A DNA stretch of 64,000 nucleotides from Pseudomonadota bacterium (lineage in GTDB: Bacteria > Verrucomicrobiota > Verrucomicrobiia > Limisphaerales > SXTU01): positions 1 to 64,000 of the forward strand of contig RFSE01000012.1 in the NCBI GenBank assembly GCA_009924135.1, in the 5' to 3' direction. The notes beneath the pieces were generated by a model. The model was not told where the DNA came from. It saw only the letters and a list, made by a program, of their open reading frames with translations, and made no database searches. Position numbers and translations under genes: made by a program. Of the stretch, positions 1,355-62,900 are shown piece by piece (position 1 is the stretch's first letter; every line of letters begins with the position of its first letter).

Positions 1355-1359
1355 TAAAA

Positions 1360-1502: not shown

Positions 1503-1541
1503 ACAACTCATTAACTGCTGCCGGTTTTACTCAGGTCCACA

Positions 1542-4800: not shown

Positions 4801-7800
4801 AGGAATTCCGCTACTCGTTCCTCAACGGCAGCTTCCAGGTCATCTTCGCCACGAACTATCCGTTGATCCCCGGCTGGATGCAGAACATTGACGTCAATCC
4901 CGGCTCGGGACGCGCCTATACGTATCTCTCCGCCGCCACTTACGTGCGTACCGACCCGCCCTATGTCATCGGCGCGCCCAATGCGCCCACGGCGGCCGTG
5001 CTCATTCAGGATCTGGATACGCCGACCTTGCCGACGTTGAATCTCGTCGCCACCGTCAACATGGCTTTGGAAAGCGGCTATGACCCCGGGGAATTTCTGA
5101 TCACCTCCACCAGCGTGCTGACAAATGACCTCACCGTTTTCTACAGCGTCACCGGCACGGCTTCCAACGGTCAGGATTACGTCTTCCTGCCCGGCTCATT
5201 TGTGATGCCCGCCAATACCCGCTCGTATCGGCTGTCCGTCTTCGCGACGAATGACTACTTCGTCGAGGGACCCGAAACGGTCATCTTGACGCTCCAGGCG
5301 AATCCCAACTACGCCTTGGGCGGTTCCATCACGGACTTCATCACCATCGTGGATGATGATCTGCCCAGCGTCTCGGTCAGTTCCTTGAGCCCGTTTGTAT
5401 CCGAAGGCGGCGGCACGGCCACTTTCACCTTTACCCGGACTGGTAACCTCGAACGTTCGCTCACGGTAAACTATGTCGTTTCCGGGACGGCTACCAGCGG
5501 CGTGGATTTCAACACCCTGCCTGGCTCTGTCACCATCCCCGCTGGCACGGAGCGCGCCAATGTCAATTTGGTGCCTATTCAGGATAACGTCGATGAAGGC
5601 GACGAGACGGTGATCCTGACCATCGTTCCCTCGGTCTTCTACAACACGGGCAGCCCGAACTCGGCACAGGCCATCATCCAGGACGACGAGCGTTCCACCA
5701 TCACCGTGGCCAAAGGCAGTGACGCGGCGGAAGGTGGAGCTGACGGATCCTTCGTCATCACCCGCACCGGCGGCGATTCGAGCACCAACCTCACCGTCTT
5801 CTTCAGCGTCGGCGGCTCGGCCGTCGGCGGCGTCGGCGCGGATTACAATGCGATTGGTACCAGCGTGGTCATCCCGGGCGGATCCACCACCGTGAACATC
5901 CCGATCCACGCGATCGACGACAATTTCTACGAAGGCACGGAAACGGTCATCCTGACGCTGACGACCAACGCCACCACCTACAACGTGGGGGCCACCTATC
6001 AGGCCCAGGTGAACATTACGGACAATGACCCCACCTCCAACCCGGGCATCGGCTTCATGGTCAGCAGCAGTTCCGGCACGGAAACCAACACCACGGTCAC
6101 GCTGACGGTTTACCTCACGGCGCTGCCGCCGGTCGGGGACCTGAGCACGAACGGGTCGCCCTCGCGCATCAAGGTGGACTACGGCGTCACGGGTGGTAGT
6201 GCCACCAACGGCGTGGACTACGTGCTGGCCAACGGCACGATTGAATGGCGTCACGGCACGAACTTCGGCGGTCAGAATCCGATCATCGCGGATGAACTCA
6301 CCAACTCCATCACCTTCACGGTGAACAACGATTTGATCGTCAACGGGGACCGCACCGTCATCGTGACCTTGTCCAACCACAACGAACTGGTAATATACAA
6401 CAGCACCAAGCACAGCTACGTCACGCGCATCACCCCGAACCCGACGCCGTTCCTGGACGACACCAACTTTGCGGCTGGATTTGGCCCGAACAACAATGTG
6501 CGGGGCCTGATTTTCCAGACCAACAACATCTTCCACACCAACGACGGGATTGTGGCGGTGGGCGACTTCACCTCCGTGAACAGCAGCAACAACACGGTGC
6601 GGGCCGTGCGGTTCCTCACCAACGGAAACATTGATCCCAATTTCGTGTTCGCGGGGGTGGATAACAGCATTCATGCGGTGGCCGCCCAGAGCAATGGCCG
6701 GCTCATCATGGCGGGGGCATTTACCAACACGCTGAGCCCGGCGGTCACGGTCAACCGGCTGATGGCCATCACCAACGGTGTGCGCGATACCTCGTTCGTG
6801 AGCACGGGGGTGAACGCCACCAACATCTACGCGCTGGCCGTGGACGCCGGTGACAAGATTTATGTCGGTGGTGATTTTGCCACGGTCAACGGCTCCGCCC
6901 GTCGGCGGTTGGCGAGGTTGAATAGTGATGGGTCGAGTGATGCCACGTTCAACGTCGGTGGCGGTTTTGTGGGCTTTGCCGAGGTTTATTCCATCTTCCC
7001 CCTGGCGTCTGGTGACGTGCTCGTGGGTGGTAATTTCACCAACTACAATGGCACTGATGTGACCAACCTGGTGATGTTGACCACGAACGGCGGCGTCGTG
7101 GGCGCCTTCACGTTCGGGGCTACGGTCAACGGCTCCGTCCGGGCGATGACGACCAACGCTGCGGGCACCGAAATCGTCATCGTGGGTGATTTCACCACGG
7201 TCAACACCAGTAACAACACCCGGATTGCCAGCCTCGTATTGGCCGATGGCTCGATCAACAACAACTTCGCTACGGATCCGGATTTCGGCGGCGCGAATGC
7301 CAGCGTCCGCACCATCCTGCGCGACACGGCCGGGCGATTCTATGTGGGTGGCGATTTCACCTTGATCGGTACCAACACGGTCTTCCATCGCTTCGCGCGA
7401 CTGACCACCTTGGGCACCTGGAACCAGCCGATGAACGCGACCAACGATCCCAATGCCACCGTGCGGGCGCTGGCGATCGATCAATTGGGACGGGTTTATC
7501 TGGGCGGCGATTTCACCTCCCAAATCTTCAACTACCCGAACAACTACTCTTTCGACATTTACCGGTCACACACTTACACGATCATTGATGATGATGCCGC
7601 CGTGGTGGCCGTGACGGCCCCGGGCGCGCCCAATGACGGTTCCTTCCAGATCACCCGCGTTGGCAGCACCACCGCGCCTTTGGCGGTGAACTTCAACGTC
7701 ACGGGTACGGCCACCCGCTCGGCCGATTACGTGCTGCGGACCAATGGCATTGTGCTGTCGGCGAACCAGATCATCATTCCCGCTGGTACCAACTCCGCGT

Positions 7801-10800
7801 TCGTATTGGTCGAGGCGATCAACGACCCGCAGGAAGAGTTCGAGGAAACCGTCACGCTCTCGCTGACCAGCGTGCCGGGCGGACGGACCGGGGCACCGCA
7901 GACGGCCACCGTTTACCTGCCGGACAGCAATGGCTCCATCCAGTTTGAGTTCGCCACGTTCAGCGCTTCGGAGAGTGCGGGGGCCGTGCCCATCACGATC
8001 CGGCGCACGGGCAACACCAGCGGCACCGTCTCGGTTGACTATGTGATCACCGATGGTACGGCGGTCAATGGCGTGGACTACTTCGGCACCAACGGCACGG
8101 TGACCTTCTTCCCCGGCCAGACGACCACCAACTTCTTCATCACGATCACGAACGACACCCTGGTGGAGGGCAATGAAACCGTGAACCTCGCCTTGGCCAA
8201 TGCCACTGGCGGCCTGCCGCTGGGGGGCCAGAATACGGCCACGTTGCTGATCATTGATGACGACACGGCCTTCCAATTTGCCGTGACGAACTTCCTGGTC
8301 GCGGAAACGGGCGGCGCAGGCAACGTGACGGTCTATCGGCTCGGCTTGAACAATGGAACGGACACCGTGGACTTCACGGCCACGAACGGGACCGCCACCG
8401 CCGGACTGGATTTCATCGGCGTGACTAACACGCTGACTTTCAACGTCGGCGTGACCAGCCAGGTGGTTAATATCACCATCCTTGATGACTCGCTGGTGGA
8501 GGGCAACGAAACCATCACCCTGCGGCTGGCCAACCCGAGCGGGACCACCTCCCTGGGCATCAGCAACACGGTCGCCACCCTCACGATCCTGGACGATGAC
8601 GCCCAGCTCTCCTTTACGGCCACCAATTACACCGTCAACGAGTATGCGGGGACGGCGGTCCTGACGGTCTTGCGCACCGGTGGCACCGTGAACACGGTTA
8701 CCGTCAACGCGAACACCACCAACGGCACGGCGGTCGCCGGGCTGGATTACTTCACCAACTTCGCCACGCTGACGTTTGCCGGGGATGTGATCCTGGCCTC
8801 GACCAATGATTCCGGGGTGATGATCACCACGCCGGGCGTGACCAGCAACACCTTCACGATCAACCTCATTGACGATGTCATCGGTGAATTCAACGAGACC
8901 ATCATCGTGGGTTTGAGTTCACCTGCCGGCGGACCGGCGGGGGCGACGACGCTGGGGACGATCTCCGTGGCCACCGTAACGATCACGGACAACGAGCAGC
9001 CGGGCGATACGGATTATGAGTACAGCGTCGGGACCGGGGCCAACGGCTCGGTGCTGGCGCTGGGCCGGCAGTCCGACGGCAAGGTGATCGTGGGTGGCGC
9101 GTTCACGCTGCTCAACGGCATCAGTTACAACCGCATTGGGCGGCTTGCAACCAACGGATTGGTGGACGGATCGTTCATTGTCGGCTCCGGGGCGAACACC
9201 AACATCCTGGCCATCAGCGTGGCCACCAATGACCGGGTGATGATCGCCGGCGTGTTCACCAACTTCAACGGCACCAACCGTGGCCGCGTGGCGCGGTTGA
9301 ATGCCGACGGTTCCCTCGACACCTCCTTCGTCACCGGCACGGGCGCGAACAGCAATGTGAATGCGGTGCTGGTGCTCACGAATAACCAGGTGTACATCGG
9401 CGGCGACTTCACCGATTACAACGGCACGAACATTGTCAACGGCACCAACGTCAGCCGGCTGGCCCTGCTGAATTCGGATGGCACGTTCAACACCAACTTC
9501 CTCTGCAGCGTCAACGGCCCCGTTTATACGATGGCCCAGCAGCCGGATGGCCGGCTGGTCATCGGCGGATCGTTCACCTCGGTGAACAGCTTCCTGATCA
9601 CCAACGTCGCCCGGATCAATACGGACGGTACGCTGGATCTTTCCTTCGTGGCCACGGGCGTGGACAACACTGTCCGCACGCTCGTCCTGCAAGGGGACAA
9701 CAAGATTGTCATCGGCGGTGACTTTAACTTCGTCGAGGGCGCGACTCGCAACTACCTCGCCCGCTTGCTGACCAACGGTGTGCTGGACACCACCTTTGCC
9801 CCGGGTTCCGGTCCTAGCGGCCCGATTCTGGGCTTGGCCATGGATTCCAATGCCAAGATCATCATCGGCGGCGCCTTCACCAATTATGCCGGTTTCGTGC
9901 GTTCGAATTTCGCCCGGATCAAGAGCAACGGGCAGCCGGATCCCTTCTTCCGCATTGGCCAGGGAGCGGACGCCACGGTACGCGTCGTGATGTCCCAGGC
10001 GGACACCTCGATGGTCATCGGCGGTGACTTTACCAGCGTGAACGGGATCGCCCGCAACCGCGTCTCCCGCGTGCATGGCGACGAGGTTTCCAATATTTCC
10101 ACCGTCGAGTTCTCGGCGTCCACCTACGTGGTGGATGAAAATGTCGGGGCGGCCACCATCGGACTGGTGCGTTACGGGGCGACCAATCAGACCACTGACG
10201 TGACCGTGGTGACCACCGATGGCACGGCGGTGAGCCCGACCCACTACACGGGGATCACCAACCTGGTCACCTTTGCCCTGGGCCAGCGGGCGCAGACCAC
10301 CACGGTGCCGATCGTGAACGGCACGGACCCGAACACGGCCCGGACCATCAACCTCTACCTGACCAATGCGGTCAACGGCTTCCTCGACACGGTGACCAAT
10401 GCGGTGCTGACCGTGAATGACAATGACGTGGTTTTTGCCTTCAGCACGAACACCTACTCGGTTTTTGAGAATGTCGGCACGGTGGACATCGGGATCCTGC
10501 GCTTCGGCTCGCTGCCGTATCCGGTCAGCGTGGTGTTCTCCACGGCGGACGGCACGGCCACTGCGCCCAGTGACTACGTTGCCCAGTCGGGCGTGCACGT
10601 GCCCTTCGGCATCGGCGTCACCTCCAACTTCGTCACCGTCACGTTGGTCAATGACATCCTGCCGGAGACCAATGAAGTCGCCAACCTGCTGTTGGCGGAC
10701 TCGCTGACGAACAATCCCCTGCTGCAAATCTTCATCACCAACTCCCCGGCTGCACTGGCGATCACGGATGATGACAACAACCCCGGCCAGTTCGCCTTCT

Positions 10801-13800
10801 CCGCGGCGACTTACTCGGTCACGGAGGCCAATACGAACTTCACCATCACCGTGGTGCGCACCAATGGGTTCGTTTCGACCAACGGCAATGCGACCGTGGA
10901 CATCACCGTTTGGGCCACCAATGGCACGGCCATTTCCCCGACCGATTTCATTGCCGCCACCAATGTCATCAACTTCACGAACTTCCAGACCACGGGAACG
11001 ATCACGGTGCGGGTGAACGATGACGCGATCACCAACGGCAATCGGACGGTCAACCTTTCACTCGTGGTGACGGACCCGACGAGCGGCGCGACGCTGGTGG
11101 GGCCGAGCACGGCGGTGCTGACCATCCTGGACGAAGACAATGGTCCCGGTTTCTTCAACTTTGCCTCGCCCACGTTCAGTGTCAGCGAGAGCGGGACTAA
11201 TGCCGTGATCACGGTCGCGCGTTCGTCCGGTTCACTGGGCGTGGTGGGGCTGCGGCTGGTAACCTCGGACGGAACGGCGCTGGCCGGCTTGGATTACGTG
11301 GCAACCACGAACAACTTCCTCATGGCGGACGGCCAGATCACCACGAACATCCTGGTGCCGATCATCATGGACAGCATCGTGGAGGGCGATGAGACCTTTA
11401 ATGTCAACCTCGCGGTGACCAGCGGCCTCGGCATTCTCGGGTCGCAGAGCAATGCGGTGGTCACAATCTTGGATGACGATGCCCTGCTCCGGTTTGTGAC
11501 GGGCGCCACCTTCGTGAGCGAGCTGGTGCCGTCGGTCACAGTCAATGTTGAACGCGTGGGCGCGACGAACGGGACGAGTACCGTGCAAGTCGTGGTCAAC
11601 ACGTTGAGTACGAACAACACGGCGGTGTCGGGTCAGGATTATGTCAACTTCGGAACCATCACCCTGACCTTCCCGCCCGGGGTGACGCAGACCAACTTCA
11701 CCGTGACCATGCTGGATGATTTCATCTTTGAAACCAACGTCGTGCTGGAACTGGGGCTGACGAATGCCTTCCCGGTGCTGAGTACGAATGCTTTCGGATC
11801 CACGGTGACGAACCTGGGCGGTTTCGCGCAGCGGAACATCTTCTCGATCAATGTCCTCGACAACGACTCGCCGACCGGGGCCTTTACGATCGGTCCGGCT
11901 CCCGGCTTTTCGCCTCCGATTGTGCAGGAGCGAGGCGGAGTTTATACCTTCCGTATCCGGCGTGTGGGCAGCACCCTCGGAGGGGTATCCGTTGACTGGA
12001 CTACGACCGAGCCAAATAATTTCCGACCCGCATTTACGCTGTTGAATGTCGGTTCGGACTATGCCGTGGCAGGCCTTGACTACACCGCGACCGGCGGGAC
12101 GCTGACGTGGGCGGATCAAGATGGTACCTTCCGCGATGTGAGCGTGACCCTGCTCAGTGACGACACCAATCCGGTGGCGGAGTTCAACAAGGACTTGTTT
12201 GTGCGTCTGTATAATCCGACCAGCACCGATACTCCTCCGAAAACCTTTCCGACGGTCGCGCCGACCACCAACGTAACCGCGTCAGGCATCGGCGGCGGGC
12301 AGTATCGTGTCACCATTGTGGATGAAGACCAACCCGGTGGCGCGGCAGACCGGACCTGGAATCTGGACAACAACTTCGGGACCACCCCCACGTTCAACGC
12401 GCTTCCTGGGGCGAATAATACGGTTCAGGCCGTGGTACTGGACACCAACGGGCTGTCGGTCATCGGCGGTGACTTCACGGCCTTCAATGCCCAGTCGGCG
12501 AACCGGATTGCGCGGGTGGACACCAATGGCCAGTTCGACGCCACCTTCAATCCCGGCTCGGGCTTTGACAGCTTCGTGACCACCCTGGCCATTTACCCAA
12601 CGGGCAGCACCAATGCGGGCAAGATCATCGCCGGCGGTGGTTTCACGTCCTACAACGGTACGAGCCGCAACCGGATTGTACGCATCAATTCAGACGGCAC
12701 ACTGGACACCACGTTCAAGCCCGGGGCCGGTTTCGACGGCCCGGTGCGCAGCGTCCTGATCACCAGCGACGGCAAGGTGATGGCGGCGGGCTCGTTCACC
12801 CGGTACAATGGTTCCACCCGGGTGAACGTCGCGCGGATGAATGACAACGGTTCGCTCGATGCCACGTTTGATCCTGTCCTGGGGCCGAATGATACGGTTT
12901 ATGCCTTGGGCATGGCTCCGGTGCCGGCCAGCTTCTCGTTCAGCGGGCAGGCGGCCGGCAGCGGGAGTGACACGAACGTACTGAACGTGGGGGCCAACGC
13001 GGGCACGCTTACGCTGGCTGTCAACGCCTATTCCATTGCCGACAACGTCCGGGTGTACTACGACGGTGTGAAGCTGTTTGATGCCACGTTCACTACCTCC
13101 TTCCTGCCCTCCAATATTGTCGTGAACTTCGGCCCGGGTACTAACACCACCGTAACCATCATCATCAACGAAGGTATCATCAATCCTTTCTCGGTGTGGG
13201 ACTACACGGGGTCGGTGGCCGCCTCAGCCTCGGCGGCGACGCCCATTTATGTCGGTGGTGACTTTACCACGTACAACGGAACCTCACGCAACCGCATCGC
13301 CCGTCTGAGTCCCAGCGGTCTGCTGGACACTTCGTTTGATCCGGGCACGGGCATCAACGGCGTGGTGAACGCCATCGCGGTACAGGCCAATGGTACGGTG
13401 CTGGTCGGCGGCAACTTCACCGTGGTCAATCAGGCCAGCCGCAGCCGCATCGTACGGTTTGCCACCACCGGGGCGATTGACACGACGTTCAACCCCGGCT
13501 CGGGGGCGGATAACTACATCAGTGCAATCACGCTGACCACCATCGGGACCAATCAACAGGCCTATGTGGCGGGGGCCTTCACCACCCTCAACGGGAGCCT
13601 GCGCAAGAACGTCGCCCGCCTCTACACGGATGGCACGGTGGACACCACGTTCATGGACCAGTCGTTGAACACTTACGCTGGCCCGACCAATGCGGACAGC
13701 TTCATCACCGCACTGGCGGTCCAGACGGACGGGAATGTCATGATCGGCGGCAGTTTCACCGGCGTGGGCGCGGCCTTCTCACTGGTCAACAATACGTCTC

Positions 13801-46349: not shown

Positions 46350-47353
46350 ACAAGGTGACCGTGCAGCTCAACGGGTTCACGCATAGCTACCCGGCGGATG
46401 TGGACATGGTGCTCGTCAGCCCGAGCGGGCAGAAGGTCCTGTTGATGGCGAATGCCGGCAGCGGCTTTGGCGTGACCAACCTGAACATCACCCTGGACGA
46501 CAACGCGACGGCGAGTCTGCCCGACACCTCGCAGCTGGCCAGCCGGTCCTATCGCCCGACCGCTTACCCGCCCACCACCGTGTTCCCGGCACCGGCACCG
46601 GCGGGTCCATACGCTACCAATTTGACCGCCTTCACCGGCTTTAATCCGAATGGCAACTGGTCACTCTACATCGTGGACGACACGGATCTGAACCTGGGCA
46701 ACATCGTCAACGGCTGGACGCTGAACATCAGCACGGTAAACCCGGCAATCGACCTCGCCGCCGCCATGACCAGCTCGGTGGCGAATGTGACGGCCCCTGG
46801 CACCGTGACGTTTACCACCACGGTCACGAACCGCGGCCCCAACATCGCCACGAGCGTGCTCTACAGCAACGTATTGCCGGCCGGGCTGACCTTTGTCTCG
46901 GGCACGGCCTCTGCGGGCACCGTTTCAAACAATAACGGCACGATCACCGTGGGCCTGGGGGCGTTGGGCACCGGGTCCAACGCCGTGGTGTCGATCACGG
47001 CCAGCACCAGCGGGGCCGGGGTGGTGACCAATGTGGCCAAGGTTACCTCGGGCGAACTGGAACTGGCTCCGGCTGATAATACCACGCAGGCAACGGTCAC
47101 GATTGCCCCGGCCGTCGTGTTCTCGCTGTATGGTGCACGCCAGCTCAATGGCCAGTTCCTGATCACCATCTCGAACGCCGTCATCGGCAAGACGTACGTG
47201 GTGGAGGCGGCAACCAACCTCGCCCATACGATCACCAACACGGTCTGGACGCCCGTCGGCACCAATAACAACACCGCCACCAGCACGTTCCTGATTCTGG
47301 ACCCGGCGGCGGGTGCGTTCCGCAACCGCATCTATCGAGGCATCGAACGATGA
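46343..47353 (+). CDS. Detached C-terminal part of giant gene 1: P-domain, DUF11 domain, C-terminal module
   Basis: 336 codons from a GTG that overlaps the giant ORF by 7 nt in a different frame. It has no signal peptide and begins mid-domain: VNKVTVQLNGFTHSYPADVD aligns with the middle of the P-domains in gene 2 (VDQVSVTLSNLSHTFPADFD), so roughly the first 25-35 residues of the domain are missing. A DUF11 domain follows (LAAAMTSSVANVTAPGTVTF...VLPAGLTFVSGTAS). The final module contains YVVEAATNLAHTITNTVWTP and ends FRNRIYRGIER. By content it is the natural end of giant gene 1, detached by a frame-disrupting deletion or an assembly error. I do not consider it an independent gene, and whether it is translated at all is unclear. 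Confidence 0.7.
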   Translation: MVNKVTVQLNGFTHSYPADVDMVLVSPSGQKVLLMANAGSGFGVTNLNITLDDNATASLPDTSQLASRSYRPTAYPPTTVFPAPAPAGPYATNLTAFTGFNPNGNWSLYIVDDTDLNLGNIVNGWTLNISTVNPAIDLAAAMTSSVANVTAPGTVTFTTTVTNRGPNIATSVLYSNVLPAGLTFVSGTASAGTVSNNNGTITVGLGALGTGSNAVVSITASTSGAGVVTNVAKVTSGELELAPADNTTQATVTIAPAVVFSLYGARQLNGQFLITISNAVIGKTYVVEAATNLAHTITNTVWTPVGTNNNTATSTFLILDPAAGAFRNRIYRGIER

Positions 47354-47449: not shown

Positions 47450-47468
47450 TTAAGGGTAATTCCGTAGC
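47450..47468 (+). promoter_or_regulatory. Shared 19-bp upstream motif, copy 2 (before giant gene 2)
   Basis: TTAAGGGTAATTCCGTAGC. It differs from copy 1 at only three positions. Similarity extends upstream as GCTT-(A)-RAATTA with one base gap. Confidence 0.55.
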
Positions 47469-47487
47469 GCCCCGGCGGGAATGGTAC

Positions 47488-47517
47488 TTGATTTGAAACT
47501 GGTTGAAAGACTACGGT
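47488..47517 (+). promoter_or_regulatory. Candidate sigma-70-like promoter of giant gene 2
   Basis: TTGATT (47488-47493), 18-nt spacer, TACGGT (47512-47517). From motif start to the -35-like box is 38 bp here and 39 bp before gene 1; to the -10-like box it is 62 and 63 bp. A start near 47524 would lie downstream of the TTG at 47503 and so argues against that codon as the translation start. Confidence 0.45.
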
Positions 47518-47567
47518 TTGCACAAACTTTTGAACTTGAAGGCACGAGATTTGGTTCAGGATTGGCC

Positions 47568-47605
47568 GGCGGCCCCGGGTGTGCGTGATGCATGCCGGGG
47601 CGGCC
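47568..47605 (+). promoter_or_regulatory. Strong stem-loop in the presumed 5' leader of giant gene 2
   Basis: GGCGGCCCCGG (47568-47578) pairs with CCGGGGCGGCC (47595-47605) at 10 of 11 positions across a 16-nt loop. It ends 20 nt before ATG 47626. No convincing Shine-Dalgarno site separates it from the start, so it may affect translation initiation. Confidence 0.4.
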
Positions 47606-47625
47606 TCAGGTTCGAACTGTCATTC

Positions 47626-53600: not shown

Positions 53601-56600
53601 GGCGAACGTGGCCAGCCTCGGTCGCAGCTCCGCCACCTTGAACATCATTGATGACGATTTCAGCCCGGGCACGTTTGTCTTCAACCAGGTCAGCTACGAC
53701 GTGCAGGAAAACGGTGGCCCAGCCACCATCACGGTGATCCGCACCAACGGTTTCACCGGGCTGGTGACGGTGCAGTATGCCTCCGCCAACGGCTCGGCAA
53801 AGGGCTACAATGGGTTGGGTTCTCCGGTGGGCTTCGACTATACCAATGCGCCGGGGTCGTTGACCTTCGGCGACGGGGAAACCGTCAAGACGTTCAATGT
53901 CGGCATCATTGACAACGCCGTGGCGGACCTGATCCCCAACCGCACGGTCAACCTGTCCCTGCTGAACCCTACCGGGGGCGCGCAGTTGGGGGCGCAGAGC
54001 ACGGCAGTGCTGACCATCCACGATGACGAACTTTCCAGTTTCGGAGCCTTCACCTTCAGCCAGACCGCTTACTCGGTGGTGGAAACCAACACCGTTGCCG
54101 CCGTCGTCGTGAACCGGACCGGTGGGAGCATCAATACCGTGACGGTGGATTTCTCCACCGGCGGTGGCACGGCGTCCAATGGCACGAATTTCCTGTCGGT
54201 CACCCAGACGCTGACTTTTACCAATGGGCAGCTCGCCGCCAATGTCTTCGTGCCGATCATCTACAACCCGGCCATCACCGGGGACAAGACGGTCAACCTG
54301 ATTCTGAGCAACCCCACGGGCGGAGCGGCGCTGGGATCTCCGTCCAACGCGGTGCTGACCATTGCGGACGCGGAATTCAGCCCCGGGGTGCTCACTTTTG
54401 GAACCAATCTGTTTTCGGTCTCGGAAAACGCCACCAATGTGATCATCACGGTCATCCGTACGAATGGCTTCACCGGTCTGGTGAGTGTGGATTATGGCGT
54501 CAGCAACCTGACGGCCATGGCCGGGGTGGATTTTACAGCCAACGTTTCCGGCACGTTGGTGTTTACCAACAACGTGTCCACCCAGTCCTTCGCGGTGCCG
54601 ATCATTGACAACCTGACCCAGGAAGGTAACCGGCTGTTCGAGGTCCGGCTGTTCAATGGTGTGAATGCGGCACTGGGCCTGACCAACGCCACGGTACGCA
54701 TTGTGGACAACGAGTCTGCGGCGGGATCGCTGGATGCCACCTTCGTGACGGGAGCCGGGGCCAACGGAGATGTGTTTGACATCGGGCTGAACGCCAGCGG
54801 CTCCGTATTCGTAGTCGGTGATTTCACCGCCGTCAACGGGGTGGCCCGCACCAACGTGGCCCGATTGAGCGCGGGCGGGGTGCTGGATCCCACCTATACG
54901 CCGGATGCCATCGTCCGGGCAGGTACCAATGCCACCGTGCGGGCAGTGGGGGTGTATTTGACTGGCACCAATGCGGGCAAGATCGTCATCGGTGGGGCCT
55001 TCGACACGGTAGGCGGGCTGGCGCGGACCAACATCGCCCGGCTCAACCCCGACGGTACCGTGGACAGTTCGTTCAATGCGGGAACCGGACCGGATAACGC
55101 GGTGTACGCCATGAACATCCAGTCGGATGGAAAAATCCTCATCGGCGGGTTTTTCACCCTCGTCAACGGAGTCAACCGCAGTTTTATTGCCCGGTTGAAC
55201 GTGGATGGATCACTCGATAACGGGTTCACCCCGGGGGCGGGTGCCGATGGTCCGGTTCGTGGCATCGCCACCGATCCCAGCGGCCGGGTGTTCATTGTGG
55301 GCGATTTCGCCTCGGTTGACAGCGTGGCTCGTAACCGGATTGCCCGGCTCAATTCAGATGGTACGGTGGATAAGACCTTTGATCCGGGAATCGGGGCTGA
55401 TGGCAGCATCAGTGCCGTGGGCGTAAACGCCGCCAGCCAGCCAATCGTGGGCGGAGTTTTCACCAACGTGAATGGTCTCGCCAGCAGCCGGCTGGCCCGA
55501 TTTAACGTAAACGGAGTGGTTGATGCCACTTTCGCGGTGGGCACGGGGGCGGATGAGTTCGTCAGTTCACTGGCGATCCAGCCGGACGGCAAGGTGGTGA
55601 TTGGTGGCGGATTTACCAGCGTGAATGGGCTGCCCCGTAGCCGGATCACCCGACTGAACGGTGATGGATCGGTGGATGCGACTTTCAACGTTGGCAGCGG
55701 GGCCAACGATGTGGTCTCAGTCATTCGTTTCCAGCCCGCGGATGGCAGCCTGCTCGTCGGGGGTGCTTTCACGGTCATGAATGGCACGGCTCAAAGTCAT
55801 CTGGCCCGCTTGATCGGGGGCACGAATCTCGGGTTCGGCAGCTTCGACTTCCTCAGTCCTACCTTCGTGGTTGCGGAATACCAGACCAACGCGGTCATCA
55901 CCGTGGTCCGGTCCGGTGGCACCAGCAATACGGTGAGCGTGGACTTTGCCACGGCTGATGGCACAGCAACGGACGGTTTTGACTATGGTGGTACGAACGG
56001 GACCCTGGTGTTTGGGCAGGGGGTGGCGTTGCGGAGTTTCCTGGTTCCGGTGATCGACAACATCTTTGTGGATGGCAACCGCACCGTGAATTTGATGCTG
56101 AGCAACCCGCAGGGAGGCAGCACCCTCGGCAGCGGGGCCAGTGCGGTGATCACCATACTGGACGATGACTCGGTGCTGGGCTTTAACCCGCAAGCCTACA
56201 GTGTGAATGAAAACGGCGGGGCCGCGACGATCATTGTGTCTCGTGCCGGTGGCACCATCGGCACTGTGTCGGTAGGCTACTACACCGGTGATGCCACGGC
56301 GGTTGCGGGGGTGGACTATGTGGCGGTAACCAACGGCGTGCTTACTTTCACCAATGGCCAGACCACGGCAACTTTCCCGGTGAACATCATTGACAATTTG
56401 ATCGTGGACGGCAATCGGACGTTGAATCTCTTCCTCACCAATGTGGTGGGCAAGGCGGTCATTGGCGGTGGCATGGCGGTGCTGACCATTGTGGACAACG
56501 AGTTCGCGCCCGGCGTGCTGCAGTTCAATCCGGCGGCCTACACTGTGGCCGAATCCAGCACCAATGTGACTTTGACGGTCACCCGCACCACCGGCCGGTC

Positions 56601-59600
56601 CGGCGTCGTCTCCGTCTCCTACGCCATGGTGGATGGCACCGCGACCAACGGTTTGGATTTCATCGGGCAGCCCGGGGTGTTGAATTTCGGAGACGGCGAG
56701 ACCGTGAAGACGATCACCGTTCCGATGATCCAGGACAACGTGTTTGAAACCGACGAAACCTTCCAGGTGGTCTTGTCCAATCCGACGGGGGGAGCCCTGC
56801 TCGGCGCGGTCAGCAATGCCGTGGTGACCATTACTGATGTGGTGCTCGGGTTCCCAACCAACAACTTCATCGTGAACGAGGCGGCGGTGAACGGGATCAT
56901 AACGATCTTCCGCGCCAACCCGAACAACACGAACAATTCGGCGAGTGTGACCTTCGCAACAGTTCCGGGGGGCACGGCGATCCCAGTGGTGGATTACACG
57001 CCGACCACTCAGACGGTGACGTTTGCCAGCGGCGAACTCTCCAAGACGGTGCTGGTGCCGCTGGTGGATGACCTCATCGGCCGGGGCAGCCGTACCGTGT
57101 TCCTCCAACTGACCAACACGACTGGGGGAGCGTCCCTGGCCCGGTCCAGTGCCGTGATGACCATCGAGGACAATGATCCGACGTTGGTGGATTACGTCTG
57201 GTCTTCGGGCAATGCGATCATCCTGAACGATGGCACCATGGCCAGCCCGTATCCTTCACTGATTACCGTGGTGGGAGTGCCCGGGGCGGTAAGCAACCTG
57301 TCGGTCACGCTCAGCAACTTCACCCATTCGATGCCTTCCGGACTGGATTTGCTGCTCGTGGGTCCACAGGGCCAGGGCGTGGTGGTGATGTCAGCCGCCG
57401 GTGGCACGAATGCCGTCTCAGGGGTCACCTTTACGCTGGATGATCTGGCTCCGGTGCATATCCCGCAGGCCGGTCCGCTGGTGAATGCGACCTACAAGAC
57501 GACCAGTTACGCGACCACCAACTTCTTCCCTGCCCCCGCCCCGGCCGGACCCTATGGCGCGGACATGTCGGTGTTTTACGGGTCCAATCCCAATGGCGTC
57601 TGGCGGCTTTACGCGGTGGACGAGGTGACCGGGGCGGCGGGCCTGATCACCAACGGGTGGTCGCTGAAGTTCAGCATGCTCGTGCCAGCCTTGACCAACG
57701 ATCTGGTAGTGGCGGTTTCCGGTTCGGCGGACACGGTAAATGCGGGTTCCAACTACACCTATACTGCCGTGGTGTTCAACACCGGTTCCCGTCCGGCCAA
57801 TAATGTGACCCTGTTCAACGTGCTGTCGCCGGGACTGGTGGTGAACACCATCACCCCCTCCCAGGGCACCGTGATCACCACCAACGGGGTGCTGGTGCAC
57901 TCCGTGGGCGTGATTCCGGTGGGTGGCGCGGCGACGCTGCGGCTCAATGTGACACCCCTGTTCGTAGGTACGGCCAGCGATTCCGTCTCCGTGATTGGTG
58001 CCGAGTTTGACAACAACCTGGCCAACAACTCCGCCGTGCAGACGACCTCGGTGGTTCCCGCAGGAACGGTGATTACGGGTCCCAATGGCTTTGTCATCAC
58101 GCCCACGACGAATCTTCCCGCACTCACGGCGGCATTGATTCCTTCCGGGTCCGGTCTGACCGTTTCGAGCACTTCGGTCTCGGCCCAGACCCGGCCAGGC
58201 GGACAGTCGGGCATCGGCACGTTTACGGCCGGTTCAGGTTCGCCTTACACCCTGTCCGGGACGGGTATCATTCTCAGCAGCGGTGACGTCAGCGCTTACG
58301 GGGCCGGTCCTAACAGCAGTACTGTCACTTTCGCGTATGGCACGCCGGCAACCGCAGCGCAGGAGGCGCTGCTCCGACCGATCAGCGGCGTAAGCAACCA
58401 CTTTGATGTGGCCGAGTTTGACGTGGTGTTTGATGTGGGGAGCAACGTTTCCCGGGTCGCCTTTGAAGTGGTCTATGGCTCGGAAGAATATCCCGTATTT
58501 GTCGGCTCATCGTTCGTGGATCCGTTTGGGCTGTATTTGAACGGTGTGAACATTGCATTTACGCCGGATGGCAATCCGGTCAACATTCACAATCCCGGCA
58601 TGACCAATCTGGCCGGGACGGAGTTGAATGGCGTTCTGGTTGTTGGCGGCAGCGCCATCCAGACCTTCAGCGCTCCGGTCACGCCGGGATCGGTCAATAA
58701 CCGGCTGACGTTCATTGTTGGTGACGCCTTCGACTCGCAGCTTGACACGACGGTTTATATCTCGGGTTTGCGCGCCGTGGTGGCACCTCCGGTGGATGGA
58801 TCGCTACAGGTGACCACTTCCACCAACACCGTGGTGGTCGGGGATAGCCTTACTTACACCATCGCGGTGAACAACAACTCGTCCACCAATGCCCTTACGG
58901 GAGTGGTCCTGACCAATCCATTGCCAGTCGGAGCAGTCTTTCAGGGGGCGGCGACTTCTCAGGGTACCGCTGTGCAGTCTAATGGCTTGCTTACCGCAGT
59001 ACTGGGAAATATCGGACCCTCGCAAAGCGCGTTTGTGACATTGACCGTCGGGGCTGCATCCGTGGGGGCGCTGACCAATGTGACCGGCCTGACCTATCTT
59101 TCCTCTGGCTTGGCGACCAACAAAACCAGCCAGGTGATCACGCCGGTACTGGAACGACTGACGACCTTTTACGGTGGTTCGTTCCAGTTGACGGACGTGG
59201 GGCCGGCCTTCACTTATCCGGCGACGATCAATGTGCTCGGGTTGACCGGGGTGGTGGATCAAGTCTCGGTTACGTTGAGCAATCTAAGCCATACCTTCCC
59301 AGCGGATTTTGACATCCTGCTGGTCGGGCCGCAGGGCCAGTCCGTGCTGCTCATGTCTGATTGCGGGGCGAATTTCCTCATGACCAACGCCACGCTGACT
59401 TTCAGCGCGAACGTGACTAATTATCTGCCGGCCAGTAATTCCATTGTCACCGGCACCTATCTGCCCACCGATTATTCCATCGGTCCGCCGGATGTCTTCA
59501 TGGCTCCGGCCCCGGCGGGACCTTACAGTTCGAGCATGTCCGTATTCAGCAATACAGACCCCAACGGACTGTGGAAGCTTTTCATTGTGGACGATCAGGG

Positions 59601-59889
59601 GGGCGATGCCGGCTCGATCGCTGGAGGCTGGTCGCTTACCTTCACCAGCACGGTGGCCCCGAGTGCGCCGCCGGTAGCGCCGCCGATGGTGTTCCAGTAC
59701 AGCCCGGGGGTAATCTCGTTGAGCTGGCCCACCAACGCGGTTGGCTTTGCGCTGGAATCAAGCCAGCTGGGCAAACCGGTGCCGGTCTGGACAACGGTGC
59801 CCCTCCAGCCTGCGGTCGTGGGCAGCAATTTTAACGTAACTATCAACACCATCGGTGGCCCGCTTTACTTCCGGCTGCGTCACCCGTAA
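47626..59889 (+). CDS. Giant secreted Calx-beta/delta-60/P-domain/choice-of-anchor-L protein, 4,087 aa
   Basis: The ORF is open from TTG 47503, but ATG 47626 is preferred because it puts the basic stretch and hydrophobic core (MHMRAVPPRRFCWVSIALTL..WLLVGG) at the N-terminus, with likely cleavage near ELAA|QPVND. ATG 47632 is also possible. In order: two PPC-like domains, two divergent Calx-beta domains, delta-60 propeller, two Calx-beta, propeller, five Calx-beta, propeller, four Calx-beta, P-domain, DUF11, choice-of-anchor-L domain, DUF11, second P-domain, C-terminal module. I count 13 Calx-beta domains and three propellers of seven units. No protease motif is evident, unlike gene 1. It is probably exported and surface-associated or released. 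It shares the upstream regulatory layout of gene 1 and sits 24 bp before a third related gene. Confidence 0.9.
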   Translation: MHMRAVPPRRFCWVSIALTLLWLLVGGPELAAQPVNDNYTNSLTLAGIAGSATRFSYFGVSGGNLNNTRATKEPGEPNHAGNLGGQSVWFNWTPPITGLAAFSAPMTSSFGRTNLIAVYTGFGQFGTNFFLNSVADNSAGFGTTVSFPVVAGTTYSIAVDGYNSTANPNNATAFQFGVAWSILTNDFFANSTVLVGSSGYNLTNSNVGATFEAASGETDHSGDPSLVGGQSVWFSWTAPLSGPATFNVGYFTTLFSTPVMAIYTGTNLGGLTMVTNNNLGLNNVTNFGFFTNSVTFDAVAGTTYRIAVDGLFGAQDTFTLSYTSTVDKSAGTFQFNTNYMAVTEFESSLWGQNNSNNEERGLLGAVVTFTRTNGATGRMMIYYTTADGTAQSGFNYQGTNGVLILDDWQMYGHILIPIYQNSFFGINNFISTNDSYFQVLITNVVVDTNVIAGSGISYTESTNLTPTFDATPLTVQINNVALAGSKANSSGIISFAKSLFRCSEDANTYDVTLYRAGGDLSTTATVRYNISSFNGNGIIGDQNIFPLTAGSDYAQATQRPRVNEPGDFTAVQGGTVTFAASDPTATIRVTIIDDNEVELNEDIYLSLISDFRTGSLSPNPQPGTTPGYLLGSQNTAILTIVMEDNIAQEQPAGAQDNTYNRANDPQTTPPFNPTPGANNVVHEVAVQPDQSAVIVGEFTAVNTTPRNGVARVLPDGSLDLSFNPGSGADGFVNAVALQPDGSILIAGGFSSYVGVSRNGVARLLTNGALDTTFDPGIGINPGDTVNNAIQSILLQPDGRIILAGNFTTFNSQPFNHVVRLNADGSVDNTFAGLGAGPNDVVFATALYTTNNTSNSNLVGKILIAGSFATVNNVPSSRLCRLNADGSVDSTFTGLGAGADADIHAITIQKDGKILIGGDFSRLDIYDRRGLARLNMDGSVDSSFSPGSGVDDAVYALALQPDGRIFIGGLFTSYHGTRRMGIARVLTNGSLDTTFMDTVYNQFAGLTQPLSTMPRSACFSIGLETNGNVVIGGDFTRVGGGFGRYRSDPTYGSLTNVGTFTVRDYISTRLNFTRLIGVTDTPGPGNLEFLTDTYTADEFIGTYYVQMLRSGGWLGQSSVNFQTSDGTAVGAPLGAPTAGYDFLHTNAAIIYRSSYNENGAPDDRRIFDSFSGLSSRATNGPGSLNIGGGGSGVGFTNAMQSASITIIQDTLVEGNEAFTGTLTIPPLSATNAPIVYLGGAPIAVGVALGRDKATFIIADDDFAYGVLTFTSTNYVVSENVGVATITVARTNGSTGNISVRYAALFDSTSTNAAKLTEFTPVSGTLSFAPGQTNRSFSVTIVDDTIVNVPPSRTIRLTLTNATGGATIAVGGGLSTLTIVDNEPPAGTPAGSVNTAFGNAVGGGNDKVVAATYITNTLSGQGLNGRWVIAGDFTTVDSLPRNRIAMLNVDGSANTTIFNRLGTGPDATVSALGIHPANAFSTNYSGRIVVGGYFTQVNGTNRSRIARLNPDGSLDASFNPGSGADNPVLSIAIQPDQKIIIAGDFTTVNGNPRNRIARLNADGSVDATFNPGQGASGTIRAVVLDATGTNIYIAGDFTAYDGVSQNHVARLRSNGSLDSTGFVNPNDPNSGADARVRGLALDPAGNLLIVGDFSKVNGNASQVRVGRMFPDGTADPAFAATADNTVLTVAVDVQTNIVIGGDFATVNGLNRTRIARLLSTGQLDATINFGTGPNNFVAALALEPVTNGVITIGGGFTQVDGSPRSYFAQLVGGQNIGIGTVQFLSANFNVQESAGNALITVRRVGGLTNGVSVDYTTLDGTAVSPTHYASNSGTLFFQQGEAVRVYTVAIADGVGTNVDRLFTNILLNPTNYDVITGNNPDPTVMGSITNATVTIQDNDSQLGFAFDFYNVNENVVGGNAVISVVRLGAPVGNVSVNYLATNGTAVAGLKYTAVSGQLNFTNGQTATTFLVPIINGTTVEGTKTVMLTLANASPANVASLGRSSATLNIIDDDFSPGTFVFNQVSYDVQENGGPATITVIRTNGFTGLVTVQYASANGSAKGYNGLGSPVGFDYTNAPGSLTFGDGETVKTFNVGIIDNAVADLIPNRTVNLSLLNPTGGAQLGAQSTAVLTIHDDELSSFGAFTFSQTAYSVVETNTVAAVVVNRTGGSINTVTVDFSTGGGTASNGTNFLSVTQTLTFTNGQLAANVFVPIIYNPAITGDKTVNLILSNPTGGAALGSPSNAVLTIADAEFSPGVLTFGTNLFSVSENATNVIITVIRTNGFTGLVSVDYGVSNLTAMAGVDFTANVSGTLVFTNNVSTQSFAVPIIDNLTQEGNRLFEVRLFNGVNAALGLTNATVRIVDNESAAGSLDATFVTGAGANGDVFDIGLNASGSVFVVGDFTAVNGVARTNVARLSAGGVLDPTYTPDAIVRAGTNATVRAVGVYLTGTNAGKIVIGGAFDTVGGLARTNIARLNPDGTVDSSFNAGTGPDNAVYAMNIQSDGKILIGGFFTLVNGVNRSFIARLNVDGSLDNGFTPGAGADGPVRGIATDPSGRVFIVGDFASVDSVARNRIARLNSDGTVDKTFDPGIGADGSISAVGVNAASQPIVGGVFTNVNGLASSRLARFNVNGVVDATFAVGTGADEFVSSLAIQPDGKVVIGGGFTSVNGLPRSRITRLNGDGSVDATFNVGSGANDVVSVIRFQPADGSLLVGGAFTVMNGTAQSHLARLIGGTNLGFGSFDFLSPTFVVAEYQTNAVITVVRSGGTSNTVSVDFATADGTATDGFDYGGTNGTLVFGQGVALRSFLVPVIDNIFVDGNRTVNLMLSNPQGGSTLGSGASAVITILDDDSVLGFNPQAYSVNENGGAATIIVSRAGGTIGTVSVGYYTGDATAVAGVDYVAVTNGVLTFTNGQTTATFPVNIIDNLIVDGNRTLNLFLTNVVGKAVIGGGMAVLTIVDNEFAPGVLQFNPAAYTVAESSTNVTLTVTRTTGRSGVVSVSYAMVDGTATNGLDFIGQPGVLNFGDGETVKTITVPMIQDNVFETDETFQVVLSNPTGGALLGAVSNAVVTITDVVLGFPTNNFIVNEAAVNGIITIFRANPNNTNNSASVTFATVPGGTAIPVVDYTPTTQTVTFASGELSKTVLVPLVDDLIGRGSRTVFLQLTNTTGGASLARSSAVMTIEDNDPTLVDYVWSSGNAIILNDGTMASPYPSLITVVGVPGAVSNLSVTLSNFTHSMPSGLDLLLVGPQGQGVVVMSAAGGTNAVSGVTFTLDDLAPVHIPQAGPLVNATYKTTSYATTNFFPAPAPAGPYGADMSVFYGSNPNGVWRLYAVDEVTGAAGLITNGWSLKFSMLVPALTNDLVVAVSGSADTVNAGSNYTYTAVVFNTGSRPANNVTLFNVLSPGLVVNTITPSQGTVITTNGVLVHSVGVIPVGGAATLRLNVTPLFVGTASDSVSVIGAEFDNNLANNSAVQTTSVVPAGTVITGPNGFVITPTTNLPALTAALIPSGSGLTVSSTSVSAQTRPGGQSGIGTFTAGSGSPYTLSGTGIILSSGDVSAYGAGPNSSTVTFAYGTPATAAQEALLRPISGVSNHFDVAEFDVVFDVGSNVSRVAFEVVYGSEEYPVFVGSSFVDPFGLYLNGVNIAFTPDGNPVNIHNPGMTNLAGTELNGVLVVGGSAIQTFSAPVTPGSVNNRLTFIVGDAFDSQLDTTVYISGLRAVVAPPVDGSLQVTTSTNTVVVGDSLTYTIAVNNNSSTNALTGVVLTNPLPVGAVFQGAATSQGTAVQSNGLLTAVLGNIGPSQSAFVTLTVGAASVGALTNVTGLTYLSSGLATNKTSQVITPVLERLTTFYGGSFQLTDVGPAFTYPATINVLGLTGVVDQVSVTLSNLSHTFPADFDILLVGPQGQSVLLMSDCGANFLMTNATLTFSANVTNYLPASNSIVTGTYLPTDYSIGPPDVFMAPAPAGPYSSSMSVFSNTDPNGLWKLFIVDDQGGDAGSIAGGWSLTFTSTVAPSAPPVAPPMVFQYSPGVISLSWPTNAVGFALESSQLGKPVPVWTTVPLQPAVVGSNFNVTINTIGGPLYFRLRHP
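47722..48606 (+). repeat. Gene 2: two PPC-like beta-sandwich domains
   Basis: Copy 1 has NDNYTNSLTLAG, EPGEPNHAGNLGGQSVWFNW and VVAGTTYSIAVDGY. Copy 2 has NDFFANSTVLVG, ETDHSGDPSLVGGQSVWFSW and AVAGTTYRIAVDGL. This 'NDNF..A..L.G....EPGEP.HAG..GG.SVW..W' form of pre-peptidase C-terminal-like domain is common at the N-terminus of secreted verrucomicrobial proteins. Confidence 0.78.
48607..49572 (+). repeat. Gene 2: two divergent Calx-beta domains
   Basis: The first runs from AGTFQFNTNYMAVTEFESS with a long Asn-rich loop. The second runs from SSGIISFAKSLFRCSEDANT to NTAILTIVMEDN and has an added loop (LTAGSDYAQATQRPRVNEPG). The closing 'DDNEVELNEDIYLSL' strand identifies them as Calx-beta despite divergence. 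Confidence 0.7.
49573..50868 (+). repeat. Gene 2: delta-60 block a (7 units, predicted propeller)
   Basis: Seven units: VGEFTAVNT, AGGFSSYVG, AGNFTTFNS, AGSFATVNN, GGDFSRLDI, GGLFTSYHG, GGDFTRVGG. The seventh blade carries an extra loop (GFGRYRSDPTYGSLTNVGTF) before its closing strand NFTRLIGV. Confidence 0.87.
50869..51771 (+). repeat. Gene 2: Calx-beta run (2 domains)
   Basis: The first (GNLEFLTDTYTADEFIG) is unusually long, with a loop of about 45 residues around SSYNENGAPDDRRIFDSFSG. The second is canonical (YGVLTFTSTNYVVSENVG). Confidence 0.78.
51772..52947 (+). repeat. Gene 2: delta-60 block b (7 units, predicted propeller)
   Basis: Seven units: AGDFTTVDS, GGYFTQVNG, AGDFTTVNG, AGDFTAYDG, VGDFSKVNG, GGDFATVNG, GGGFTQVDG. 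It opens with AGSVNTAFGNAVGGGND. Confidence 0.88.
52948..54717 (+). repeat. Gene 2: Calx-beta run (5 domains)
   Basis: Openings are GIGTVQFLSANF, SQLGFAFDFY, SPGTFVFNQVSY, SSFGAFTFSQTAY and SPGVLTFGTNLF. Five domains before a propeller is also the commonest run length in giant gene 1. Confidence 0.87.
54718..55830 (+). repeat. Gene 2: delta-60 block c (7 units, predicted propeller)
   Basis: Seven units: VGDFTAVNG, GGAFDTVGG, GGFFTLVNG, VGDFASVDS, GGVFTNVNG, GGGFTSVNG, GGAFTVMNG. GGGF again occupies the sixth position. Confidence 0.88.
55831..57180 (+). repeat. Gene 2: Calx-beta run (4 domains)
   Basis: Openings are GFGSFDFLSPTF, SVLGFNPQAY, APGVLQFNPAAY and VVLGFPTNNF. The last, with NPNNTNNSASVTFATVPGG, ends in VMTIEDNDPT just before the first P-domain. 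Confidence 0.86.
57181..57690 (+). other. Gene 2: proprotein-convertase P-domain 1
   Basis: The domain is complete: ILNDGTMASPYPSLITVVGV, then VSVTLSNFTHSMPSGLDLLL, FPAPAPAGPYGADMSVF and NPNGVWRLYAVDEV..ITNGWSL. It gives the reference for what is missing from the N-terminal end of the P-domain at 46343. Confidence 0.82.
57691..58065 (+). other. Gene 2: DUF11-type domain 1
   Basis: DLVVAVSGSADTVNAGSNYT, ANNVTLFNVLSPGLV and FDNNLANNSA are the usual DUF11 landmarks (A..G....Y......G...A..V...D.LP.GL...D....N). Confidence 0.75.
58066..58791 (+). other. Gene 2: choice-of-anchor-L domain
   Basis: GTGIILSSGDVSAYGAGPNS, then FDVVFDVGSNVSRVAFEVVY, GSEEYPVFVGSSFVDPFGLY and ILDTT-like closing VYISGL. 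The 'F...SEEYPEFVGS.FND.FG..L.G' core is diagnostic of this domain, which in other bacteria sits before varied surface-anchoring signals. Confidence 0.8.
58792..59148 (+). other. Gene 2: DUF11-type domain 2
   Basis: QVTTSTNTVVVGDSLTYTIA, VVLTNPLPVGAVFQGA and SQSAFVTLTVGAAS. It joins the choice-of-anchor-L domain to the second P-domain. Confidence 0.75.
59149..59658 (+). other. Gene 2: proprotein-convertase P-domain 2
   Basis: GPAFTYPATINVLGLTGVVD, VSVTLSNLSHTFPADFDILL, APAPAGPYSSSMSVF, DPNGLWKLFIVDD and SIAGGWSLTF. The domain is complete and closest in form to the P-domain fragment at 46343. Confidence 0.83.
59659..59886 (+). other. Gene 2: C-terminal beta module
   Basis: Ends ISLSWPTNAVGFALESSQLG..VWTTV..VTINTIGGPLYFRLRHP. 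The layout (W....GF.LE.S..L....W..V, then F.R) parallels the C-terminus at 47353 (VVEAATNL..VWTPV..FRNRIYRGIER). A role in sorting or anchoring is possible but not shown. Confidence 0.55.
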
Positions 59890-59913
59890 TTTTTGCGACT
59901 GATCCTCGTTTAC

Positions 59914-62900
59914 ATGCAACGAACATTTGATCCGCGACCCAAGGGGTTGTCCGAAGCGTCCGGCCGCGTAGTTGGCTGGCTCCTGACGGTGGCCTGCTTC
60001 TGGCTGGCCACCACTGGTTTGCTTGCGCAGACGATCTCATTTTTGCCGGGCCAGCCCGTCAGCTTCAGCGAAGGAGCGACGAATGCGGTGATCACCATCA
60101 TCCGCAGCCCGGTCACCGGGACGGCCAGCGTCTCCTACTTCACGACGAACGGGACCGCCACCGCCGGCGCGGACTACGTGGCGGTATCGGGCACCTTGTT
60201 TTTTAACAACGGTGAAGGTTCCAAGACGGTGACCATTCCGATTTTGCAGGACACCATCGCCGAGCCGACGGAGACGTTTTTTCTGGTGCTGACCAACCAG
60301 TCGGGGGCCTCGTTGTCCGCCAATGTGCTGCAACTGTCGATTTTGGATGATGACACCTTCTTCCAGTTTTCCTCGCCGACTTATTCGGTGAGTGAAGGCG
60401 CGACGAATGCGGTGCTCACGGTTTTACGCACCGGGGGCGCACCGGGGGCGGCATCCGTAGATGTGGTCACCAGCGACATCACGGCGACCAACGGCTTGGA
60501 TTACACGAATGTGTCCCTGACCCTGTCTTTTGCCACCGGACAGACCCAGGCCAATGTCAGCATCTCCATCGTGGATGACTTTTTGATCGAAGGCTCGGAG
60601 ACGTTCCGGGTCTCCCTGACGAATGCCGTGGGGGCGGCCATCTCTGGCGGGTCGGCGATTGTCACGATTCTCGACAACGACGGGCCAGGGGGCACGTTGG
60701 GGTTTGCCGTATTCAACCAGCAGGTGGACGAGGGGACGAATGTGGTGATCACGGTCACGCGGACGGGTTCGACTGTCTTGCCGGTCAGCGTGGATGTCGT
60801 CGTTTTGAACCCCAACCTCAATCCCGTGCAGCCGGTTTCCACCAACGCCATTTACGGAATTGATTACAACCTGACCTCGGGACGAGGGGGGACCAATAGT
60901 GCGGTCGTCACGAACTTTACGGTCTCGCTGACCCTCGTTTTCCCGGCCGGTTCGGGTTTCCAGACCTTCACGCTGAATGCGTTGAACGACACGGCGGTGG
61001 AAGTGTTTGAAACCGTGCTCCTGAGTTTGCAAAACGCCACGAACGGTGCGGTCATTGACCCGCCGCGCAGCTTGATGCGGGTGGACATTAATTTTAACCA
61101 GCAGCCTCCCGGCGCGGCCGATCGCCAGTACAACTTCAGCTCCGTGATCAACCCCAATCCGGGGGCCAACAACGCGGTTTATGCCACCGCCGCATATACC
61201 AATCGCGCCAGTACCAATTTTGGAAAGGTCATCATTGTGGGTGATTTTACGGCCGTAAACTCGAACGTCCGGAATCGCGTGGCCCGTTTGAATCCGGACG
61301 GCTCATTGGATGGTACGTTCGATCCCGGCACGGGCGCGGATGACGCCGTCTTTGCCGTGGCCATCCAGCCGGATGAAAAGGTTCTGATCGCCGGGCGGGT
61401 TGCTTCTTATAACAGTGTGGGGCGCGCCGGGGTGGCCCGGATTAACAATGACGGTTCCTTGGATGGCACCTTCGATCCCGGAACGGGGGCCGATGCCCAA
61501 GTCACCGCCATGGCCTTGCAGACCGACGGCAATATCGTGCTGGCCGGCAATTTCACCCATTTCAACAGCATCGTCAGGAATGGTCTGGTAAGACTGACAA
61601 CTGCGGGGGCCGTGGATATCAGCTTCGATGCCGGTGCCGGACCCAATGGTACAGTTTACGCGCTGGGACTTTCGCCGAATCTTGCCGGTACCCAGACCAT
61701 TTACTTGGGCGGTGATTTCACCAGTGTGGCGGGCGTACCCCGGCCGCGCGTGGCCCGCCTGCTGCCGACGGGTGGGGTTGACGGGGCATTCGCTCCTGCC
61801 TCCGGTCCGGACAACACCGTGTTTGCGTTGCTGCCCGGCGCCAGCTCACTGATGATTGGTGGTGCCTTCACCTCCTACAACCAAGTGGCCCGGGGCGGGT
61901 TGGCCCGGCTTAATTTGGACGGTTCGCTGGACCTGACGTTTTATCCCGGTACCGGGGTGGTGGGGTCGGTGTACTCGATCTCATTGCAGACCAACGGCCA
62001 GCCGGTGATTGGTGGCGAGTTCATCAGTTACAACGGGACGCCGCGAACGAACCTTGCCCGGCTTTATGGTAATGGGGTGCTGGATACCAGCTTTTTGGAG
62101 CGGTTTTACAATGAAACCCAGCCCGGGCCCAACGGGTCGGTGCAGACGGTGAACGTGCTGCCCTCCGGAAATGTGATGATTGGCGGCGTTTTTACCCTGG
62201 TGGGGGGCGGATTTACGGGGCAGCAGGTGTTGCCCCGTTACAATGTTGCCCAGTTGATTGGCGGGGACATTCTGCCGGTCCGCAACATGGCGGGAAATAT
62301 TGGGTTCAGCACGAATTCCTTCACCATTGATGAGAACGTCGTCAGTGGCGCGGTGGCCATCCGGCTGCACCGGGCCAATGGCGAGCTGGGGCAGGTAATT
62401 GCGAGCTACCAGACCGTGGATGGCACCGCTGTCGCCGGCCGGGATTATGTGAGCGCGTCAGGTCTGGTGTCCTGGGCTGATTCGGACACCATCGTGGACC
62501 GGTTGATCTTCGTGCCGATCATTGATAATAAAATTGTGGACGGGAACCGGGCTTTCACCATCAAAATCACCTCGGTGACCTCGGGCGGCTGGGGGACTGA
62601 TCCGGCGCTGGATTTTCTGGACGCGACGACGGTGACCATTGTGGATGATGATTCCTTGCCCGGGGTGCTGGGGTTCAGTGCCCCGTTTTACCGGGTGGAC
62701 GAAAGCGTTGGCAATGCGACGGTCACCGTGAACCGGACCAACGGCTCGGTGGGAGCCGTCAGCGTCCAATATGCCACGAGCCCTGGGACGGCTACACCGG
62801 GAGCTGACTATTCGAGCCGCAGTGGGACCTTGACCTTCGCCTCGGGCCAGACCAGCCGGACGTTCACGGTGCCAATTCTAAACGACACGATTGTGGAGTT

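Follow-up and report, generated by a model that had tools for sequence, protein, structure and literature searches.

Why should a repeated sequence unit occur, gene after gene, in groups of seven? The question is raised by the first 64,000 nucleotides of contig RFSE01000012.1 (hereafter the window; contig C14, which ends at 64,051), from the draft genome (6.68 Mb, 490 contigs) of a bacterium of Verrucomicrobiota lineage SXTU01. Three open reading frames (ORFs) on the forward strand—gene 1 (1542–46349; 14,935 residues), gene 2 (47503–59889; 4,128 residues), and gene 3 (59893–64000; at least 1,369 residues, truncated by the contig end)—each mix Calx-beta domains with units of the delta-60 (DUF5122) repeat. 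An initial annotation of this DNA held that the units occur only in sevens and that every block is one or two seven-bladed propellers. Here, we give a probability of about 0.9 to the reading that seven delta-60 units close into one seven-bladed propeller, that 14 units form two adjacent ones, and that gene 1 carries 13. This reading is supported by the predicted structure of a single block (gene 1 block 5), the structural matches of a 14-unit block, the positional register among blocks, and linkers that follow after seven or 14 units. In the proposed mechanism, one unit would be one four-stranded blade, seven consecutive units would fold into a closed beta-propeller whose last blade is expected to be completed by the first strand of the block (Velcro closure), a 14-unit block would be two such propellers side by side, the 13 delta-60 propellers of gene 1 would be carried on rods of Calx-beta domains, and arrays of other lengths would have been removed by selection for a closable ring.

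Units in the window were recounted with a 55-position unit profile and a separate landmark score for the GGxF strand. The 15 complete blocks, all on the forward strand, comprise 13 blocks of seven units and two of 14. In gene 1, the counts run 7, 7, 7, 7, 7, 7, 14, 14, 7, 7, and 7: seven units each in block 1 (6453–7577, the most diverged), block 2 (9009–10097), block 3 (12369–13811, with an inserted domain of ~100 residues between GGxF strands 3 and 4), block 4 (15414–16556), block 5 (18282–19367), and block 6 (23409–24497); 14 units each in block 7 (26859–29363) and block 8 (31689–34223), both predicted double propellers; and seven again in block 9 (36003–37097), block 10 (38841–39938), and block 11 (42306–43403). 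Gene 2 has three seven-unit blocks (49624–50832, 51820–52938, and 54718–55824), and gene 3 has one (61129–62277), followed by the first two units of another (63700–64000) at the contig end. These independent counts equal those of the initial annotation for 15 of the 15 blocks, including the 14 units in gene 1 blocks 7 and 8, and its block coordinates agree with ours. Window blocks that appear to have six units do so because one GGxF strand is degenerate (e.g. VAGNLN or IAGRV); the double spacing exposes the hidden unit. Judged by sequence, the first strand of a window block is D-like and the last is the C strand; the strand pairing itself is not readable from the model described below. At an expectation of 1/7, 15 multiples of seven out of 15 blocks give a binomial p of 2e-13, which is not a fair probability because adjacent window blocks share descent; a census of homologues is the real test.

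Structure prediction bears on whether such a block closes. Supplied with an alignment of 52 homologous blocks, AlphaFold2 (AF2) predicted block 5 of gene 1 as a confident, compact, and closed domain (predicted local distance difference test [pLDDT] 94.8; predicted template modeling score [pTM] 0.93). Foldseek aligned nearly the whole block with WD40 proteins, G-beta, CylK, and the BT4663/BT4673 sensors in the PDB; the comparison with PRL1 (4yvd) gave template modeling scores of 0.67 for the query (TMq) and 0.81 for the target (TMt), with a root-mean-square deviation of 3.5. The identifiable structures among the best 50 PDB matches are all seven-bladed, a blade number that is established for these proteins, and the matches are not open solenoids. 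A seven-unit block is predicted to be a closed seven-bladed ring, the ring count being taken from these matches.

For the 14-unit block 7 of gene 1, the AF2 model (pLDDT 88.5; pTM 0.79) has among its top Foldseek matches the double seven-bladed propellers BT4673 (3va6) and AIP1. A 14-unit block could instead be imagined as a single ring or as an open superhelix that runs on continuously, and several 14-unit arrays do lack a linker in the middle, with a spacing of 49–51 residues throughout. We consider this very improbable, given that the top matches just named are double seven-bladed propellers, that the seven-unit block is predicted confidently on its own, that a linker comes exactly behind unit 7 in other homologues, and that WRAP (Npun_R6612, PDB 2YMU), a WD40 array whose 14 blades are nearly identical, forms two seven-bladed propellers in its solved structure (PMC6805158).

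The census drew loci from the genome of the window and from genomes of the same order and the same phylum, and added 79 loci from named genomes, which were found with a consensus of four units. A permissive setting of the counter had produced spurious eights and fifteens, and its threshold was tightened. After restriction to insert-free, untruncated blocks without edge problems and removal of redundancy at 70%, 185 blocks remained: 124 of seven units, 41 of 14, two of 21, and 18 others. Multiples of seven make up 167 of the 185, against ~14% expected (binomial p = 2e-118 at 1/7), and arrays of eight to 13 units account for 7/185. Sizes are not spread over all integers, as a survey of homologues might have found. 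With looser settings and a joining cut of 180 residues, 77–79% of blocks are multiples of seven (213/272 untruncated blocks). All 39 blocks from Bacteroidota (12 of seven units, 26 of 14, and one of 21) and all five from Chloroflexota are multiples of seven. Several homologues have linkers or Calx-beta domains directly after units 7, 14, and 21, and in two of the longer proteins (L098 and L067), groups of seven are separated by single Calx-beta domains.

A second set, of complete plasmids and phages, lay outside the training of the counter, and its units were counted partly by eye. Clear seven-unit arrays occur there in Deinococcus, Azotobacter, Streptomyces, and a Leptospira phage, and two Hymenobacter plasmids and one Methylobacterium gene have seven units, a linker, and seven more. 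In one Methylobacterium gene, a group numbers six units and is without the first blade that is present in the neighboring groups, and the delta-60 units of a Stenotrophomonas phage are too degenerate to be counted. The Leptospira phage ORF (L209; KF114876), of 388 residues, is almost wholly one seven-unit delta-60-like propeller.

Since the window and many of the homologues come from draft metagenome assemblies, and degenerate strands can be missed by the counter, the counts might have been distorted by collapse or expansion of repeats during assembly or by the counter itself. Such errors would scatter counts over all integers rather than pile them up at seven and 14; moreover, the complete plasmids agree, and the two peaks are stable across counter thresholds. 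We find distortion of this kind scarcely credible. Where 14 automatic exceptions were read by hand, several came down to a degenerate strand that had been overlooked, an extra strand wrongly counted, a nested insert, a truncation, or a frameshift; the frameshift-split ORF pairs in L022 and L074 sum to seven units.

Several points weigh against the propeller reading, on both the sequence and the structure side. Roughly 10% of clean arrays depart from a multiple of seven. Seemingly real exceptions have 13 units (L146, L159, and L073, the main ones), eight (L079), or six (L114), and the claim that units come in sevens alone is true of ~90% of arrays across the family. The consensus query used for the named genomes is biased to very regular arrays. 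On the structure side, the alignment supplied for block 5 consisted of seven-unit blocks only, which favors a seven-unit outcome; the number of blades in the ring was inferred from structure matches, not read from coordinates or the predicted aligned error; and the Velcro strand pairing was not seen directly in the model. The 14-unit model has a low TMq to double propellers (0.27–0.29), which gives no support to any particular placing of one ring relative to the other, and it matches a six-bladed NHL domain (TMt 0.62) about as well as seven-bladed G-beta (0.61), so that Foldseek on this model could not by itself decide the number. Two propellers in a 14-unit block agree with the kind of top match, at low scores, and also with the register of blades 8–14 and the linkers after unit 7 in homologues; the conclusion on blade number draws on the model of the single block and on the units counted in the sequence.

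If sevens are the rule, how do they come about? One answer is common descent: whole blocks of seven and 14 units would have been copied, and the counts, being inherited, would be uninformative on folding. The window offers evidence of this kind. Its seven-unit blocks are in mutual positional register, aligning best at shift 0 in 42 of 78 pairs (11 expected), and blocks 7 and 8 of gene 1, with their 14 units each, are plainly copies of each other, with a mean similarity of 0.61 in register and 0.33–0.39 otherwise. Apart from the question of descent, position-specific features stated by the initial annotation hold as tendencies: GGGF stands at blade 6 in 7/15 regular propellers versus 4/104 units elsewhere (Fisher p = 3e-5), and an extended loop precedes GKLVV at blade 1 in 8/15 propellers versus 2/104 elsewhere. 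In both 14-unit blocks, blades 8–14 keep the register of the single propellers and blades 1–7 do not; the window doublet is therefore an unlike first propeller followed by a regular one. Across genomes the picture differs. In the 41 clean 14-unit arrays, mean identity between units is flat, at 0.45–0.49 for lags 1–11, with no peak at seven-unit spacing (lag 7 is best in 2/41). Arrays of 14 units from different genomes align best at shift 0 in only 171 of 819 pairs, and their interior blades have no preference for shift 0. Common descent as the explanation of the sevens seems to us rather unlikely.

From the flat lag profile and the lack of shared positions, it follows that many arrays look amplified or homogenized blade by blade, and yet they number 14 units. 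These comparisons suggest that arrays arise by amplification or homogenization of single blades, not by duplication of whole propellers, and survive at seven and 14 units; later homogenization of inherited blocks is possible. Both processes are visible in the window, where blocks were copied whole and a doublet has unlike halves. That arrays grow blade by blade and survive almost only at seven, 14, and 21 units, with ring closure acting as a length filter, is a tentative proposal, to which we would assign not quite even odds.

Three blades in gene 1 contain a further domain of ~95 residues, nested in the A–B hairpin: in blade 4 of block 3 (12948–13226), blade 7 of block 7 (27876–28178), and blade 7 of block 8 (32718–33032), all on the forward strand. 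It is beta-rich, follows the pattern PDxLRVYYxGxLLFDTG ... YGPG ... NEG, and has no Pfam match. In the loci fetched, 15 of 17 copies lie in an A–B hairpin, mostly that of blade 7 in 14-unit blocks. A whole-genome search also located the domain where DUF5122 gives no match, for example in the genomes G055, G017, and G051, and the idea that it is exclusive to delta-60 blades was rejected. As a domain within one blade hairpin, it is a new, previously undescribed feature. Another small insert, with the pattern TxxxHGLxxGxxVTVSGVxxxxYNGTxTVxxVxxxTxFxY, is shared by two homologues, where it lies within or beside a delta-60 blade (L155, residues 3590–3727 of ORF 2–11470; L188, from residue 1643), and in gene 1 at about residues 940–1010.

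The rest of gene 1, described from its Pfam domains and block count, consists of an N-terminal hydrophobic segment, a region resembling zinc metallopeptidases, PKD, and ~60 Calx-beta stretches, which accompany the 11 delta-60 blocks. Pfam matches of the peptidase region are weak (Reprolysin_3 and Peptidase_M66); the metallopeptidase motif HEFGHNLGLLH (HExxHxxGxxH) is at 3054–3086, around residue 505. Between delta-60 blocks 5 and 6 lies an Asp-box propeller region (21267–23408, forward strand) of the sortilin/xyloglucanase-like, GH74-like kind (Pfam Sortilin-Vps10, 1.1e-8; PDB 3b7f and 6p2o). The figure of 13 propellers stands for the delta-60 type and omits this region; gene 1 would have more than 13 in total. 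Gene 2 contains Calx-beta, DUF11, P-domain, and choice-of-anchor L in addition to its three delta-60 blocks. Right after the stop of gene 1, a P-domain/DUF11 segment follows in a different frame (46343–47353). In three relatives (L084, L075, and L117), the corresponding parts form one ORF, with ~60 extra residues between them, so that the window copy has either a deletion with a change of frame or an assembly error. With its hydrophobic start, zinc-peptidase motif, PKD, Calx-beta domains, propellers, and, after the frame break, P-domain and DUF11, the domain content of gene 1 fits a secreted or surface/matrix scaffold, in which propellers may serve as putative binding discs on Calx-beta rods.

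Membership of the family is firm. The DUF5122 profile (PF17164; cut-off 27) scores 617.5 bits in gene 2, 219.5 in gene 3, and 621–905 in three pieces of gene 1, and TIGR02608 (cut-off 76.5) scores 259.5 bits in a 14-unit block and 158.4 bits in a seven-unit block. The period of TIGR02608, by its family description and not by a formal criterion, is 57–61 residues, whereas spacing in the window and its homologues is mostly 49–57, with peaks at 51 and 49; plasmid members, including the longer-period ones of Azotobacter, Deinococcus, and Streptomyces, have 52–62. Because the profile match lies far above the cut-off, the short-period units are treated as family members that differ in length.

The assignment of DUF5122 to the propellers is not new: the fold was already suspected, and the Pfam description of PF17164 reads ‘beta-propeller’. 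For WD40, an array of 14 blades arranged as a pair of seven-bladed rings is known (2YMU). Our finding holds up but is for the most part an expected extension. The PF17164 and TIGR02608 entries, as shown, state no blade number, our literature search found no seven rule stated for DUF5122, and the PDB held no convincing sequence match that would provide a solved structure. New, as far as we could find, are the strict counting rule across several bacterial phyla and the finding that 14-unit arrays lack an internal period of seven units. With a DUF5122 literature that is almost nil, a blade number of seven provides an annotation unit for proteins of great length, helps to spot genes that are truncated or misassembled, and shows where to cut experimental constructs. 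With intermediate lengths nearly absent in several phyla, these arrays also form a natural data set on selection for closed folds among repeat arrays.

Among known systems, the C-terminal propeller of Rax2 (PF12768) gives partial profile matches to parts of blocks, with E-values down to 4e-21, but belongs to another gene architecture and another organism. A search for literature on Calx-beta giant proteins found nothing specific. Giant secreted bacterial proteins of up to 85,800 residues are described for the Planctomycetes–Verrucomicrobia–Chlamydiae (PVC) group in work cited by PMC12057145; gene 1 is likewise a very long multi-domain ORF of Verrucomicrobiota, built from Calx-beta domains and delta-60 propellers. 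The closest comparison is with WD40. Block 5 resembles WD40 structures in fold, but the window proteins are no WD40 members by sequence, the PF00400 profile scoring 23.8 and 13.5 bits, below its cut-off of 27; DUF5122 has been homology-modeled on the 2ymu template (PMC8078820). As in WRAP, 14 delta-60 blades would form two sevens. WD40-like arrays also peak at seven and 14 blades but with a continuum between (PMC9218822), in contrast to the 7/185 intermediate arrays of delta-60. If ring closure does act on these arrays, the length filter would be stricter than in the WD40-like continuum, and the 13-unit arrays would be its informative exceptions.

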